In this document: positions 25,041 to 37,446 of the stretch, piece after piece
Numbering within the stretch: the first letter of the stretch is position 1
How the letters are laid out: each line of letters starts with the position of its first letter
Assembly: GCA_020444075.1 (NCBI GenBank)
Contig: JAHLLR010000048.1
Coordinates: 1-39,523, forward strand
Direction of reading: 5' to 3'
From: Deltaproteobacteria bacterium
GTDB lineage: Bacteria; Desulfobacterota; Desulfobacteria; Desulfobacterales; Desulfosarcinaceae
Length of the DNA: 39,523 bases
Position numbers and translations under genes: made by a program
Notes under the pieces: generated by a model
Told to the model about the DNA's origin: nothing
Seen by the model: the letters and a program-made list of their open reading frames with translations, nothing else
Database searches by the model: none

Positions 25041-27407
25041 ATGGCAACTGAAAACACAATGGATGCTACCAGAAAACGCTTGATCGGCGCGCTTATCGCC
25101 GCGCTGACGTTCTTTCTCCTCGCCACCGGCGCCCCCGCCCAGGATCAGAATCAGAGCCAGAAGCAGGGGCAGGCAACCGGCGGCGGCACGGCGGCAAACG
25201 GGTCACAGCGCTATGTCTCCATCGATTTCAACAATGTGGATATCAGCGTGTTCATCAAGTTCATCAGTGAACTCACCGGGAAGAATTTCGTCATCGACCA
25301 GCGCGTCAAGGGCAAGGTAACCATCATCTCCCCGTCCAAGATTTCTGTCGAAGAAGCCTACAAGGTGTTCGAATCGGTTCTCGATGTTCACGGCTTCGCC
25401 ACCGTGGAGACCGGCAAGCTGATCAAGATCATTCCTTCTCCTGACGCCCGCACCAAAAACATCGAGACCCGAACCCAGGCCAGAGGCGATTCGGATAATG
25501 ACCAGGTGGTCACCCAGCTGATGCCCCTGCGCTTTGCCGACCCTGACGAAGTCAAACGGCTGTTCACCCCCATGGTTTCCAAAAGCAGCGTCATCCTTTC
25601 GTACGCGCCCACCAACACATTGATCATCACCGACAATTATTCCAATATCGCCCGCTTGATGAAGATATTGAAAACCATCGACATTCCCGGCGTGGGACGG
25701 GAGATCACCATATTTCCGATCCACAACGCCGATGCGGCCAAGCTGGTGTCCCTGCTGGAAACGGTGTTCAAGACCTCATCGGCGCCGGCCAAGAAAGGAG
25801 CCGTCCCAACGGACCGCAATGCCGCCTTCGTGGCCGACGAACGCACCAACAGCATCATCATGGTGGCCAGCGAAGTCGACACTAACCGGATCCGCAACCT
25901 GATCGACAACCTCGATCAGGAAACCCCCAAAGGCAAGGAAAGGATCCACGTCTACTACCTGGAATATGCCGTAGCGGAAGAAATCGTCGCCGTGCTCAAG
26001 GATCTTCCCAAGGAAGACAAGACCAAAGCCGCGGCTGCCAAGGAAGCGCCGGTGGTTTCCGACAAAGTCACGATCACGGCCGACAAAGCCACCAACAGCC
26101 TGATCATCACCGCCGACCGGGACGACTATGCCACACTGGTGGAAATCATCCGCCAGGTCGACATTCCCCGGTCCATGGTCTACATCGAAGCCCTGATCAT
26201 GGAGGTCAATGCCTCGAAAAGCTTCGATCTGGGCACCGAATGGATCGTGGGCGACGATGTCTCGCTGAACGAAGGCCGTCAAGGGGTCGTCGGCGGCGGT
26301 TTCGCCACCGACGAATCGAACCTGTCCCTATTACGCAGCACGACCCCCTCGCTCGCCTCCGGCTTTTCCCTGGGCCTGGTCGGCGAGGCCATAACCATAA
26401 GCGGCGTCTCGTTTCCCAGTATCGCCGCCATCGTGCAGGCCTACAAAAAAGACACGGATGTCAACATTCTCTCCACGCCCCAGTTGCTGACCACCGACAA
26501 CCAGGAAGCCAGCATTACCGTGGGCAAAAACGTCCCGTATCAGACCACGACATCGACGACCAACAACGACACCTACAACTCCTTCGAATACCGGGATGTG
26601 GGCAAAACCCTCAAGATCACGCCTCAGATCAACAAGGACCGCATGGTGCGGCTGAACCTGTCGCTGGAAGTCTCCTCGCTGGCCGATGCCAATACGACCG
26701 ACAGGCCCACGACGCTCAAGCGCACCGTGGAAACCACGGTAATGGTCAAGGACAGCGGTACCGTGGTCATCGGCGGGCTTATCGACGACACCTTTTCCCA
26801 AACCGAATACAAGGTCCCCTGCCTGGGGGACGTTCCCGGGCTGGGCTGGCTTTTTAAAACCCGATCCAAGGGCAGCGACAAGACCAACCTATTCATCTTC
26901 ATCACCCCCAAGGTGATCCAGAACCCAGGAGAAGCCACCGCCGTCTTCGAGTCCAAAAAAAACCAGATCGATGAAATGCGCGAGATGCAGATCAAGCTGT
27001 ATCAGGGCGGTAAGGTGCCCACTGATTCACCGCCTATTGCAACGGGTTCCCCAACCGAAACCGCCCCCGGGGCCATGAGGGACAACACGGGCGAAACCGG
27101 TACCGCCAACAGCGGCCCACTCATGCAGTCCCCGCCGGCCGCAGCTGAGTCAGTGAACAATCGTGCGTCAGGCGGTTATCTTCTTCAAGTGCAGTCTTTC
27201 AGCGACGAAATGTCGGCATTGGAATCGGTCGAGCGTCTCAAACGGATGGGGCATCCGGCCTATATCGCCGAAACGGATGTGGGCGGAAAGATCTGGTATC
27301 GAATACAAATCGGCGGCTTTCCGGACCGTGCGGCCGCACAAGCGGCCCGGGATGCTCTTTCCGACCAGGGCATTGCAGACACGCTAATCCTAAAAAACGA
27401 CCAATGA
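25041..27407 (+). CDS. gspD: type II secretin GspD with C-terminal SPOR domain
   Basis: A 788-residue outer-membrane secretin. A signal peptide ends near residue 33 (ATGAPA). The N0 domain spans about 53-125 (YVSIDFNNVDISVFIKFIS), followed by N1-N3 repeats and the secretin core from about 385, with the signature VPCLGDVPGLGWLFKTR near 592-608 and TNLFIFITPKVI after it. A Pro/Ser/Thr/Ala-rich linker (about 655-710) then leads into a SPOR domain (711-785: GGYLLQVQSF, WYRIQIGGF). SPOR domains normally bind denuded septal peptidoglycan. Ordinary secretins end in a short S-domain bound by a pilotin, so the SPOR tail may replace or supplement that anchor. No pilotin gene is seen here. The stop codon overlaps the gspE start. 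Confidence 0.95.
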   Translation: MATENTMDATRKRLIGALIAALTFFLLATGAPAQDQNQSQKQGQATGGGTAANGSQRYVSIDFNNVDISVFIKFISELTGKNFVIDQRVKGKVTIISPSKISVEEAYKVFESVLDVHGFATVETGKLIKIIPSPDARTKNIETRTQARGDSDNDQVVTQLMPLRFADPDEVKRLFTPMVSKSSVILSYAPTNTLIITDNYSNIARLMKILKTIDIPGVGREITIFPIHNADAAKLVSLLETVFKTSSAPAKKGAVPTDRNAAFVADERTNSIIMVASEVDTNRIRNLIDNLDQETPKGKERIHVYYLEYAVAEEIVAVLKDLPKEDKTKAAAAKEAPVVSDKVTITADKATNSLIITADRDDYATLVEIIRQVDIPRSMVYIEALIMEVNASKSFDLGTEWIVGDDVSLNEGRQGVVGGGFATDESNLSLLRSTTPSLASGFSLGLVGEAITISGVSFPSIAAIVQAYKKDTDVNILSTPQLLTTDNQEASITVGKNVPYQTTTSTTNNDTYNSFEYRDVGKTLKITPQINKDRMVRLNLSLEVSSLADANTTDRPTTLKRTVETTVMVKDSGTVVIGGLIDDTFSQTEYKVPCLGDVPGLGWLFKTRSKGSDKTNLFIFITPKVIQNPGEATAVFESKKNQIDEMREMQIKLYQGGKVPTDSPPIATGSPTETAPGAMRDNTGETGTANSGPLMQSPPAAAESVNNRASGGYLLQVQSFSDEMSALESVERLKRMGHPAYIAETDVGGKIWYRIQIGGFPDRAAAQAARDALSDQGIADTLILKNDQ

Positions 27408-29128
27408 ACAAATCCCTGGAAGATATCTTAAAAAGCAAATACGGCCTCTCCGATGAGGACTATGCCGACGCCGTCAGGCTCCACGATGAAAAAGGGGACC
27501 GCCTGCCGGACGTGCTGCTGCGTCGCAAGGTCATCAGCGAGACCCAATTGCTGGATGCCTTGAGCGACCAGTATGACCTCCCCTTCTGGCCGGAGCTTCC
27601 TCTGGAAAGCTTTGGGGAAGACCGTACCCGCAGTGCCCCCATCGCTTTTCTCAAGCGCCATGTCATGGTGCCGCTGGTGCTGAAGAACATCCCGGCGGCA
27701 GGGGTTACCGTTCTGCCAGAGGAGATGGTCAACATCATCGCCGTCAACGATCCTGCGGCCTTTCAGCCTCTGGACGACCTGGCCCGAATGATCGGCTTTT
27801 CGTCCTACAACCTGGTGCTCTCCACCAAAAGCGCCATTTTTGCCGCCATCAACCTGATCTTTGACATGAGCCGGGGCACCGCCGAGCAGTTGGTTCAGCA
27901 CATGGAAGAGGACGGCAGCACCATCATCAGCGAGATCGAGGACACTGCCGACCTGCTCGAGGACACCAGCGATGCCCCCATCATCAAGCTGGTCAATCAT
28001 ATCATCTCCCAGTCCATCAAGGCCCGTGCCAGCGACATTCACATCGAGCCGTATCAGGACAGCTTCAAGGTACGCTACCGCGTGGACGGAATCCTCTACG
28101 ACCTGCTCGCACCGCCAAAATGGATTCAGGCCTCACTGATTTCACGTATCAAGGTCATGGCCAAACTCAATATTGCCGAAAAGCGGCTGCCCCAGGACGG
28201 CCGCCTGGAAGTCAAAATCGGCAGCCAGAATGTGGATGTGCGTGTCTCCACCCTGCCCACCACCTTCGGTGAGCGAGTGGTCATGCGGCTGTTGAACAAA
28301 TCCGAAGAGGTATTGAACCTCAAGGAACTGGGGTTGTCGCCCGAGGATCAGGAACTGTTCAACAAGCTGGTGACCCAACCCAACGGTATCATTCTGGTGA
28401 CCGGCCCCACCGGAAGCGGCAAGACCACCACCCTCTATTCCGTGCTGGCCTCCATCATCAAACCGGACATCAACATCATCACCATCGAAGACCCGGTGGA
28501 ATACCAGCTCAAAGGCATCAGCCAGATCCAGGTGAACCCGAAAATAGATCTCACCTTTGCCCGCGGCCTGCGTGCCATCGTCCGCCAGGACCCGGATGTG
28601 ATCCTCATCGGCGAGATCCGCGACAAGGAAACCGCCACCATCGCCGTCCAGTCGGCCCTGACCGGCCACCTGGTGTTTTCCACCCTGCACACCAACGATT
28701 CGGCCGGTGCGATTACGCGGCTGGTGGACATCGGTGTCGAGCCGTTCCTCATCTCCTCTTCCGTCGTGGCGGTGATCGCCCAGCGTCTGGTGCGGGTGCT
28801 GTGCGATCACTGCAAGGAAGCCTACACCCCGGGTGTAATCCTGGAAAGCATCGGCATTTCCCGGGAGCAGTTGCGCAGCCACACCCTTTATCAGGCCAAC
28901 GGCTGTGAGAAGTGCTTTAACACCGGATACCGGGGTCGCATCGCCATATTCGAGATCATGCACATGCGCGAGGGATTAAAAAATCTGATCCTGAAGACCT
29001 TTGACGCCACCCAGATCAGACAATTCGCCCTGCAGTACAACATGAAAACCCTGCGCCAGAGCGGCATTGAGAAGGTGCTGGCCGGCATGACCACCATCGA
29101 AGAGGTCCTGCGGGTGACCCAGCAGTAA
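27404..29128 (+). CDS. gspE: type II secretion ATPase GspE
   Basis: A 574-residue cytoplasmic ATPase that powers pseudopilus assembly. An N-terminal GspE/PilB-type domain (about 1-150) precedes the motor: RASDIHIEP (208-216), Walker A GPTGSGKT (334-341), Walker B DVILIGEIRD (398-407), a His box (STLHTNDSAGA), and a zinc-binding tetracysteine motif (C467, C470, C501, C504). All catalytic residues are present. The ATG overlaps the gspD stop, so the two are translationally coupled. It closes the gsp gene set here; gspO is not present. Confidence 0.97.
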   Translation: MNKSLEDILKSKYGLSDEDYADAVRLHDEKGDRLPDVLLRRKVISETQLLDALSDQYDLPFWPELPLESFGEDRTRSAPIAFLKRHVMVPLVLKNIPAAGVTVLPEEMVNIIAVNDPAAFQPLDDLARMIGFSSYNLVLSTKSAIFAAINLIFDMSRGTAEQLVQHMEEDGSTIISEIEDTADLLEDTSDAPIIKLVNHIISQSIKARASDIHIEPYQDSFKVRYRVDGILYDLLAPPKWIQASLISRIKVMAKLNIAEKRLPQDGRLEVKIGSQNVDVRVSTLPTTFGERVVMRLLNKSEEVLNLKELGLSPEDQELFNKLVTQPNGIILVTGPTGSGKTTTLYSVLASIIKPDINIITIEDPVEYQLKGISQIQVNPKIDLTFARGLRAIVRQDPDVILIGEIRDKETATIAVQSALTGHLVFSTLHTNDSAGAITRLVDIGVEPFLISSSVVAVIAQRLVRVLCDHCKEAYTPGVILESIGISREQLRSHTLYQANGCEKCFNTGYRGRIAIFEIMHMREGLKNLILKTFDATQIRQFALQYNMKTLRQSGIEKVLAGMTTIEEVLRVTQQ

Positions 29129-29135
29129 GGCCGGG

Positions 29136-29525
29136 ATGAATGCCGCCATTATGGATAACTGCCTTATGAAAATTTTTTACATGGCTATGCTGTTTTTTCT
29201 GTCTGTCGGCCCCGCACTGGCCGGCCCCGTGGAACCGGGGCCGACGATGCAATGGGAGTCCTTGCCGGCAGCGGCAGCGCCCGTCCGTTTTTTCCAGAAA
29301 TACCTGTCCGGGGCGGACGGCCACCGCTGCCCCATGACTCCCTCGTGTTCCAGCTATGCCCTGCAGGCCATGCAGCGCCATGGAAGCGTCATGGGATGGA
29401 TCATGGCCTGCGACCGCCTGATGCGCTGCGGCCGTGACGAACTGAAGCGAAGCCCGTCCGTAATGACCCGCAGCGGCATCCGCTGCCAGGATCCGGTTCG
29501 AAACAACGACTTCTGGCTGCACTGA
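29136..29525 (+). CDS. yidD: YidD-like protein with N-terminal signal peptide
   Basis: A 129-residue protein whose core (about 50-103) fits the YidD/haemolytic-domain family: RFFQKYLSGADGHRCPMTPS, then CSSYALQAMQRHGSVMGW and RLMRCG. Typical YidD proteins are 70-100 residues, cytoplasmic at the inner face of the membrane, and help YidC insert membrane proteins. Here a hydrophobic segment (about 12-27) ending ALA-G looks like a signal peptide, so the protein is probably exported, which changes its likely role. Cysteines C65, C71, C92, C98 and C117 could form disulfides in the periplasm. It lies seven bases after gspE and seven before a TPR/membrane gene, suggesting work in the envelope with them. 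Three in-frame ATGs near the start make the exact beginning uncertain. Confidence 0.75.
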   Translation: MNAAIMDNCLMKIFYMAMLFFLSVGPALAGPVEPGPTMQWESLPAAAAPVRFFQKYLSGADGHRCPMTPSCSSYALQAMQRHGSVMGWIMACDRLMRCGRDELKRSPSVMTRSGIRCQDPVRNNDFWLH

Positions 29526-29531
29526 CACCCG

Positions 29532-30479
29532 ATGGCATCTCCCATGGCAATTCGACCCGTTTTCCGTTTTCTGATCATCGCCATCGGCGTCCCCCTGGTG
29601 CTGTTTGCCGCCACCACCCGCGCCTTCACCCAACTGACCATCGATGCGGACAGTCAATACCGCTACGCCCAATCGCGCCTCGATGCCGGGGCCGTCGACG
29701 AAGCGATTGTTGAATTCAACCGTTTTATTTATTTTTTTCCTGAAGACCCCAGAATTCCCCGGGCCCGATTTCAGACGGGCATGGCCCACTTCAATGCCGG
29801 CCGGTATCAAGCGGCAGCAGCCATTTTCAACCGGCAAACCGAAGCGTTTGCCGGTTCACCACTGGACAACCAGGCCTTTTTCATGCTCAGCCGCAGCCAT
29901 GCCCGCCAGGGCATGACCGAACAGGCCATATTGGATCTGCATAACCTCGTGGCCTTGTCTTCAGAGACGGATGTGATCGACCGGGCCCGCTACGAACTGG
30001 GATGGCTCCATGTGGATCAGGGTCGCTGGAACGACGCCGACCAGTCCTTCGGCGGCATATCCCCCGGCAATCAGAACCGCTTTCAGGTGGCTGACCTGAA
30101 GCAGGCCCTGGCCCTCAGCGAAGCGATCCCGGTCAAGCATCCAATGACCGCCGGTCTGCTTTCCATCGTGCCCGGCGGCGGCCAGCTTTACTGCAACAGG
30201 TATCAGGATGCGTTGACCGCCTTTTTGATCAACGCCGGCCTGATCTGGGCGGCATGGGAGGCATTTGACGATGAACAATACGCCCTTGGCGGCGTAATCG
30301 GTTTCGTGGAATTCGGTTTCTACGCCGGCAATATTTACGGCGCCGTCTCCGGTGCCCATAAGTACAACCGCGACCGGATTGCCGAGTATCGTGAACGTCT
30401 TAACCAGCGCAGGCAGGTGTCCTTATCTCTGGCCCCGGTACCCGAGGGTGCCGCCCTGCGCCTGACCCTCAGCTTTTAG
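29532..30479 (+). CDS. exported TPR protein with C-terminal membrane region
   Basis: A 315-residue protein of unknown role. A signal peptide or anchor spans about 11-29. Helical TPR-like repeats follow at about 38-190 (YAQSRLDAGAVDEAIVEFNR, ARFQTGMAHFNAGRYQAAAA, ARYELGWLHVDQGRWNDAD). Next is the PGGGQLY motif (214-220) with two or three hydrophobic segments (about 226-275), a pattern seen in DUF5683/TM2-like membrane proteins. The chain ends LRLTLSF, an aromatic end like that of outer-membrane proteins, though the hydrophobic spans look alpha-helical. The gene is tightly linked to the exported YidD-like gene and the PASTA gene. Envelope scaffolding is a reasonable guess, no more. A second ATG four codons on is possible. 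Confidence 0.65.
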   Translation: MASPMAIRPVFRFLIIAIGVPLVLFAATTRAFTQLTIDADSQYRYAQSRLDAGAVDEAIVEFNRFIYFFPEDPRIPRARFQTGMAHFNAGRYQAAAAIFNRQTEAFAGSPLDNQAFFMLSRSHARQGMTEQAILDLHNLVALSSETDVIDRARYELGWLHVDQGRWNDADQSFGGISPGNQNRFQVADLKQALALSEAIPVKHPMTAGLLSIVPGGGQLYCNRYQDALTAFLINAGLIWAAWEAFDDEQYALGGVIGFVEFGFYAGNIYGAVSGAHKYNRDRIAEYRERLNQRRQVSLSLAPVPEGAALRLTLSF

Positions 30480-30483
30480 CCTT

Positions 30484-31479
30484 ATGCCATCTCCCCCCGC
30501 TTCCCCGGTAAAGACGCTGGCAAAAAAAGCATTGCGAATCTCGCTGCTGGTCGCCCTTTTCGTAATCATGGCCGGTATGGGAACCTACCTGGCCCTGACC
30601 CTGATCATCAAGGGGGAGGATACCGTCATCGTCCCCGATCTGGTGGGAAAGGACGTCCTGTACGGGCTTGAAATCCTGTCGGACTTAGGACTCAATACCC
30701 GCGTCAAGGGAACGGAATATCATGACCGGGTGCCCAAAAACCACATCATCGATCAGGATCCGGGTCCCGGCGCTGCCATCAAGCGGGGGCGGGACGTTAA
30801 GATACGCGTCTCCCGGGGCACGGAAACTATTTTCATGCCCAATCTGGCCGGCTTTTCCCTCCAGCAGGCCAGGATCCTGTTGACGGAAAACGGCTTGTGC
30901 CAAGGGGTGCTGTCCGGCATGATCAGCTCCCGGTTCGACGCCGGACAGGTCATGGCGCAATATCCGCCCCCCGGTGGCATCGTTTCCCGCAACACCTGTG
31001 CCGATCTGTTGGTCAGCCGGGGGCCGTCGCCCCCGGCGTTTGCCATGGTGGATCTGTCCGGGTTTATCCTGGAGACGGCCATTCGCCGTCTGGAACAGAT
31101 GCAGTTGACAGTGGGAAGCATCCGTACCGCTCGCCGGTCCGATGCGCCGCTGGAAACCATCGTGGATCAAATGCCGCCCGCCGGGTACCGCGTGGCTTCG
31201 GGAAACCGGGTGGACCTCACGGTCAACCGATCCAATGACGGCCGGTATGCAGGCAATGCCGAAAACGGGAATCAGTTGGAATTGTTCAGGTTTTTCCTGG
31301 AAAACGGTTTTTTAAAGAAACGGGTCCAGGTAAAGATGAATCGGCGGCAGCTCTCACTCAACCTGTTCGATGATTTTTTGGCGCCGGGCCAAGAGATCTG
31401 GCTTTTAGTACCGAAAAGTGGTAACCCCACGATACTTGTGTATGTAGATGGCCAGTTGGTGGAAACCCGGTTTATGTGA
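30484..31479 (+). CDS. membrane-anchored PASTA protein without kinase
   Basis: A 331-residue bitopic protein: short basic cytoplasmic tail, one helix (about 18-42), then three PASTA domains (about 47-112, 114-178 and 182-250; IVPDLVGKDVLYGLEILSDL and FMPNLAGFSLQQARILLTEN open the first two), and a C-terminal alpha/beta part of about 65 residues with a KKRVQVKMNRRQLSLN stretch. PASTA domains bind peptidoglycan fragments or beta-lactams and usually sit on serine/threonine kinases or penicillin-binding proteins, but neither domain is present here. Similar kinase-less PASTA genes lie beside rpe in other deltaproteobacteria. It begins four bases after the TPR gene. Confidence 0.82.
   Translation: MPSPPASPVKTLAKKALRISLLVALFVIMAGMGTYLALTLIIKGEDTVIVPDLVGKDVLYGLEILSDLGLNTRVKGTEYHDRVPKNHIIDQDPGPGAAIKRGRDVKIRVSRGTETIFMPNLAGFSLQQARILLTENGLCQGVLSGMISSRFDAGQVMAQYPPPGGIVSRNTCADLLVSRGPSPPAFAMVDLSGFILETAIRRLEQMQLTVGSIRTARRSDAPLETIVDQMPPAGYRVASGNRVDLTVNRSNDGRYAGNAENGNQLELFRFFLENGFLKKRVQVKMNRRQLSLNLFDDFLAPGQEIWLLVPKSGNPTILVYVDGQLVETRFM

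Positions 31480-37049: not shown

Positions 37050-37446
<397 letters not shown>

Follow-up and report, generated by a model that had tools for sequence, protein, structure and literature searches.

Ordinary YidD is a small helper protein that works on the cytosolic side, next to the YidC membrane-insertion machine. What, then, would a YidD-domain protein be doing if it carried an export signal and lay among type II secretion genes? The question is raised by a 129-aa ORF at positions 29136–29525 (plus strand) of a 39,523-nucleotide stretch of DNA from a Deltaproteobacteria bacterium (contig JAHLLR010000048.1; the whole stretch is called the window below, and its order, Desulfobacterales, simply the order). 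The ORF lies 7 bases downstream of gspE (27404–29128, plus strand; T2SSE by Pfam) and 6 bases upstream of the next ORF. A preliminary description of the locus held that this is a YidD that appears to be exported, possibly with a new role in envelope assembly alongside the type II secretion system (T2SS) it follows. The reading preferred here is that the exported YidD paralogue and the TPR/hairpin protein encoded next to it form an envelope module, in which a YidD on the periplasmic side helps its partner to assemble in the envelope; we would give this a probability of about 0.45.

A YidD core behind an export signal

The YidD core claimed for the protein is there by the curated cut-offs of both family models. 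PF01809 matches ORF residues 47–99 (29274–29432, plus strand) at E 5e-16 and 58.7 bits, against a cut-off of 27, and TIGR00278 matches residues 46–100 at 64.2 bits, against an NCBIfam cut-off of 40. Residue conservation and a structural model support the same core, which holds four (C65, C71, C92 and C98) of the five cysteines that had been counted in the mature part; the fifth is C117. The exported form shares with YidD (formerly DUF37 or haemolytic domain) the first helix, the motif Cx5C(S)xY, the helical hairpin, RC and D-P, and the window protein has the three domain cysteines of YidD (C65, C71 and C98). There are multiple differences. First, an export signal takes the place of a bare N-terminus. 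Second, the canonical C-terminal HPxxxGGxDPVP is absent from the window protein: the Pfam match covers profile positions 5–57 of 67, the HPxxxGG loop gives way to a longer insert (residues 99–118; 29430–29489, plus strand; placed by the end of the Pfam match, by canonical sequences and by the model), and the protein ends in DPVxxNDFWW, of which DPVxxNDFW (residues 119–127; 29490–29516, plus strand) is marked out by residue conservation. Third, the gene does not lie between rnpA and yidC and is tied to a TPR partner. In the AlphaFold model of the window protein (mean pLDDT 84.5) a signal helix (3–23) leads into a long first helix and then a hairpin of helices, with core helices at 45–64, 71–82 and 84–97 and insert strands at 108–111 and 114–118. 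None of 17 PDB structure matches to this model reached E <= 0.001, and VIA-align against 33 PDB chains gave Z <= 2.7, neither of which proves a new fold; no sequence relatives of the window protein were found among the PDB chains searched.

The preliminary description had proposed a search for a second, normal yidD between rnpA and yidC, the lack of which would speak against an exported version. Such a gene exists in the same genome (G000:C93:42774-42971, E 1.3e-29): Pfam places rnpA (PF00825) before it, yidC (PF02096 and YidC_periplas) after it and mnmE farther on. The order rnpA-yidD-yidC-mnmE is the usual one and is described for E. coli too in a passage of a published paper (PMC10502375). 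Since the canonical gene occupies that place, the window copy, which follows gspE, is a paralogue. Judged by sequence and position, the window protein is thus a member of the YidD family by profile, yet two features of the YidC helper are missing: a gene position flanked by rnpA and yidC, and the canonical C-terminal end. A plasmid search gave a single record, in which the matched stretch is annotated as yidD and rnpA. Farther along the window lies the RNase P RNA (class A; 37058–37435, minus strand; 322 bits), and the ORFs listed there are probably spurious.

Whether the paralogue is exported depends first on where translation starts. A hydrophobic segment ending PALA|G stands before the YidD core, as had been noted from the letters. 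In the Desulfosarcina alkanivorans locus (L063; 72% identity to the window protein and, with L064 at 73%, one of its nearest named relatives) the ORF opens NIRLMKYF with no ATG, GTG or TTG in frame ahead of MKYF, and in a DNA alignment of the window with both relatives conservation begins at the third ATG. For these two reasons the start is probably that third ATG, at 29166, which would open a complete 19-residue signal peptide of the Sec type, MKIFYMAMLFFLSVGPALA (29166–29222, plus strand), with predicted cleavage before G30 in the numbering of the 129-aa ORF and equivalents in relatives. The preliminary description had named a start at the third ATG, with the hydrophobic segment as an uncleaved, cytosol-facing anchor, as the outcome that would undo it. 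The first half of that alternative probably holds; the second does not follow from it, since the same start opens a signal peptide and a lipoprotein branch of the family speaks against an anchor.

The family as a whole gives the export signal more weight. We judged export from hydrophobicity and from a motif test devised for this analysis, applied by script to 101 loci, 92 of which had an ORF with an assignable start. (A scan of genome contigs gave 8 loci. Three loci, L118, L127 and L130, in which the script found no start or core pattern, were excluded from the N-terminus count and the alignment, though each of them has, by eye, a hydrophobic stretch; L072 and L103, copies of L065 and L069, were excluded from both as well and are included in the 89 order loci discussed below; L154 was kept out of the exported-YidD alignment, and L159 was excluded because its sequence is not of the exported type.) A hydrophobic segment upstream of the core (nine-residue mean Kyte-Doolittle value of at least 2.0) was present in 91 of the 92, the exception below 2.0 being L154, a fusion of TPR repeats with a YidD domain. 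Among 34 canonical YidD rows, two of them the same gene, 1 reached 2.0 and 11 were too short for the region. Hydrophobicity by itself is common in these genomes: a value of 2.5 within the first 92 residues was reached by 84/92 exported-type ORFs and also by 196/568 neighbouring ORFs. A lipobox is therefore the better test of export, and a lipobox-like cysteine occurs in all 36 members of one branch, marked by the motif RGPLNHLSAVR and its variants, against 26/568 background ORFs. Outside that branch 14 of 59 tested members have one. The window protein has no lipobox, as its signal peptide ends PALA|G without a cysteine; signal-peptidase-I-like sites are found in many members of its own and related branches. 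At 12 of 12 distant loci read by eye the exported YidD had an export-type N-terminus. Taken together, these sequence features make it very probable that the window protein is sent beyond the inner membrane, and the claim of export stands at that strength. In the lipoprotein branch none of the 36 members has Asp after the lipobox cysteine. By the E. coli sorting rule, a lipoprotein lacking Asp at this position goes to the outer membrane, which suggests an outer-membrane location for this branch.

It is very unlikely, then, that the protein is just a cytosolic duplicate, an ordinary YidD copy with an uncleaved N-terminal anchor. The still recognisable YidD core would fit such a copy, and export is read here from sequence, but the lipobox-like cysteine in every member of one branch and the signal-peptidase-I-like sites in many others are not what an anchor would call for; moreover, the rnpA-yidC neighbourhood is absent and the partner itself begins with an export-type N-terminus.

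A tree (134 rows, 92 columns) agrees with a separate family: a branch with SH-aLRT 97 (starred) has the 17 canonical YidD rows on one side, and the 36-member lipoprotein branch has SH-aLRT 99 (starred). We used only the large splits, because the columns are few, 67 of the 131 inner branches stay open, and L156, a long row, meets the canonical branch. The other 91 aligned exported sequences are 25–73% identical to the window protein. Over all 92, C65, P69, R94 and L95 are invariant, C71 is kept in 89 and C98 in 90, and in the C-terminal motif D119 is kept in 91, P120 in 88, N124 in 85 and W127 in 71. Such conservation of residues and motif across the sequences, together with that of the partner, makes a chance or decayed copy without function hardly credible. 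The five cysteine positions are filled variably (three, four or five per member, and two in three members); some exported proteins lack C98 or C71, and C98 is lost in many from outside the order. Cysteine pairing as proof of export was dropped on these grounds. For the same reasons, the varying counts and the frequent loss of C98, we claim neither a fixed disulfide nor a fixed metal site.

The TPR partner and its co-occurrence with the exported YidD

The gene directly downstream (29532–30479, plus strand) encodes a 315-aa protein, recognised by Pfam TPR matches, co-occurrence and a model (mean pLDDT 91.3), which begins with a signal-like helix (7–26). Behind the TPR half lies a conserved hydrophobic helical domain, residues 204–295 (30141–30416, plus strand), delimited by invariant columns and by the model and bearing PGxGxxY...GNIYG...AHKYN (in the consensus, PGxGxLYCxRYxDA...GNIYG...AHKYNR). 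The model adds a C-terminal beta-hairpin, strands 296–303 and 306–313 (30417–30470, plus strand; pLDDT about 56–70), shortly before a terminal Phe. The last residue is Phe in 48 of 53 partners and Tyr in three of the 53; among distant partners 9/12 end in Phe or Trp. The TPR half resembles known periplasmic TPR proteins: a chain of the PpiD-YfgM complex (8zht_B; rmsd 3.0 over 168 columns, E 1.2e-4), BamD (3qky; E 6.5e-5) and, by sequence, CpoB (E 2.5e-5). These are generic TPR matches, and we know of no hairpin domain in, or YidD pairing of, YfgM-PpiD, BamD or CpoB. The hydrophobic domain has a weak match to DUF5683 (PF18935; E 0.049, 24 residues aligned), whose 14.1 bits lie below the cut-off of 26.7, and the partner is not a member of that family by this measure. 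Most of the weakest partner hits outside the order, eleven of them, reach the profile solely in the hairpin domain (positions within 174–301); three others (G224, G190 and G154) match the TPR part only and may be unrelated TPR proteins. The gene behind the partner, at 30484–31479, encodes three PASTA repeats, and no kinase domain was matched in its product.

How closely do the two genes keep together? Presence was entered manually from the scores of the matches listed, so that weak relatives may be missed. The samples were 146 genomes of the order and 285 of the phylum outside it, both drawn from larger groups. In the order 139 genomes have a YidD match and 87 the exported kind among the matches listed; a genome was counted for the exported kind if it had at least two YidD matches (except G014, whose two are canonical-like) or if its sole match was of the exported kind, and the divergent G086, G123, G026 and G020 were counted after their loci were read. 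Outside the order a match counted at about 60 bits or more if it reached profile position 116, or else at 75 bits or more; three genomes, G257 (65.6 bits, uncertain), G421 and G378 (too weak), were not counted, and the match in G181 is a fragment and that in G273 contains stops.

Among the matches listed, 82 genomes of the order have both genes, 5 the exported YidD alone, 7 the partner alone and 52 neither; for the 118 order genomes with gspC the corresponding figures are 78, 3, 7 and 30, and for the 285 genomes outside the order 46, 2, 7 and 230. The three uncounted weak genomes have no partner match and would change the last set to 46, 5, 7 and 227. These counts ignore relatedness among genomes, so that P values computed from them overstate the association and are not relied on here; the coupling is seen in many families and in both gene orders. 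It does not depend on adjacency, either: the two are an adjacent pair at 47 of 89 order loci and not neighbours at 42, and in 35 order genomes both are present, among the matches listed, but apart. Outside the order the partner lies within 1.5 kb at 42/50 exported-YidD loci. The TPR-YidD fusion mentioned above, a single ORF (L154:3377-4279) directly before a partner homologue, fits a link between the two. As far as sequence can tell, a two-gene module, an exported YidD with a secreted TPR protein that bears a hydrophobic helical hairpin, is well supported. That the exported YidD nearly always shares a genome with this one membrane-anchored repeat protein suggests an undescribed envelope-assembly pair.

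Type II secretion and zinc uptake as genomic settings

The preliminary description had tied the protein to the type II machine, and part of that tie holds. The exported yidD follows gspE at 37 of the 89 order loci: 36 read gspE-yidD-TPR and 1 has gspE only, while 11 have the TPR gene without gspE in view, 18 have znuABC-type genes alongside and 23 remain (L125 among them, whose sole znuB score comes from its own ORF). The tie is closer for the partner. We examined 40 loci where the partner stands away from the exported YidD of the same genome (33) or in a genome without one (7), with G084, G123 and G137 left out, and at 32 of them the partner lies directly behind gspE; within the order, it is thus the partner gene that keeps its place in the T2SS operon. 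The exported YidD instead tracks the adjacent TPR gene. It is present in 81 of 118 gspC-bearing order genomes and absent from 37 among the matches listed, so that the T2SS is a frequent setting of the module and not its definition. A core T2SS component would be present in every T2SS of the group, and at 81/118 the exported YidD is not. The module is accessory to the T2SS and lies outside its core. Outside the order, a gspE match was found within about 1.5 kb in 2 of 19 exported-YidD loci that have the TPR partner; a GspC match was present in 33/48 carriers of the exported YidD against 80/237 other genomes, among the matches listed. For 15 of the 48 carriers no GspC match was found among those listed (GspC is poorly conserved), and G043, a genome 99% complete, has the pair and no GspC match. 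The module is probably not confined to the T2SS. In the window the secretin GspD (25041–27407) has a C-terminal SPOR domain (residues 709–781), to our knowledge unusual for a T2SS secretin.

The same counts bear on the main competing explanation, namely that the pair is a T2SS biogenesis factor, pilotin-like, that delivers the secretin GspD to the outer membrane. There is precedent in PilF/PilW, a TPR lipoprotein that is the pilotin for the type IV pilus secretin. Several observations point this way: the 36 gspE-yidD-TPR loci and the 32 separate partners directly behind gspE; a GspC match in 81 of 87 order genomes with the exported YidD and the excess among carriers outside the order, all among the matches listed; and the missing Asp after the lipobox cysteine and the terminal Phe of most partners, both of which fit the outer membrane by E. 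coli rules. A T2SS evidently works without the exported YidD, however, because 37 of the 118 gspC-bearing order genomes lack it among the matches listed, and the carriers outside the order that have no GspC match, G043 included, likewise tell against a dedicated pilotin, subject to the poor conservation of GspC. On balance this explanation is unlikely, and the envelope module, with the T2SS as one setting, is preferred.

Another setting is zinc uptake. Genes for ZnuA-like or ABC-3-permease-like proteins lie on the same strand within 1.5 kb at 17 of the 89 order loci, with one more locus (L112) having them on the opposite strand, and Pfam confirms the identity of two Znu-type neighbour proteins. 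If the conserved cysteines bound zinc or another metal, the lipoprotein branch could serve ZnuABC uptake, and the near constancy of C65, C71 and C98 would agree with that. Those three cysteines are also present in canonical YidD, though, and are therefore not new to export; C98 is missing in many members outside the order; and, with the profiles used, the T2SS-type loci showed no ZnuA- or ZnuB-like gene. Metal handling is accordingly improbable, more so than a pilotin-like role. A ZnuABC link as the general role was rejected, as it is true of just 18 of the 89 order loci. At two loci the exported YidD is directly followed by a gene whose product either has, by Pfam, the CxxCxxCC domain that putatively chelates zinc or iron (L135:3250-4044) or resembles such a protein (L148:4366-5112), and in a third (L107:4262-5005) a highly repetitive ORF lies immediately downstream.

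A working model and its place in the YidD family

The preliminary description expected an exported YidD to need a new role, possibly in envelope assembly, and because the exported form is conserved it presumably has its own envelope function. Export and pairing are well supported by the sequences; the mechanism we infer as follows. Sec would carry the exported YidD across the inner membrane, where signal peptidase I would cleave it, or, in members of the lipoprotein branch, lipidation would take place instead. Once periplasmic, it could rest on a membrane surface by its first helix and by the helical hairpin that bears cysteines. In passages of two papers YidD figures as a putative insertion efficiency factor (PMC8082313; PMC3573977), and cytosolic YidD is believed to aid the clients of YidC. 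By analogy with this cytosolic YidD, the exported protein might assist the insertion or assembly of a hydrophobic client, namely the hairpin domain of its partner, and the completed TPR protein would then serve an envelope machine. In Desulfobacterales that machine may often be the T2SS, since in most cases the partner gene still stands behind gspE when yidD is elsewhere. The biochemical activity may nonetheless differ from that of YidD, because the canonical C-terminal HPxxxGGxDPVP is altered. A bolder version is more doubtful and is put forward only tentatively: that a lineage of Gram-negative bacteria evolved a YidD for the periplasmic or outer-membrane face, which with the TPR/hairpin protein inserts or assembles hydrophobic helical envelope proteins beyond YidC and SecYEG.

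Among the literature matches listed, with most subscription journals outside the coverage, neither an exported YidD nor a YidD-TPR pair was described. TIGR00278, an equivalog model, matches 92/92 aligned exported proteins at E <= 0.001, and these proteins are therefore liable to be named as helpers of the YidC pathway. The model does not separate the exported paralogues from the YidC helper, which is an annotation problem. YidD is widespread, and here is a natural version that kept the core, very probably left the cytosol and acquired one fixed partner. It would separate the function of the YidD fold from that of YidC, and it offers a defined two-protein system in which that function could be tested.
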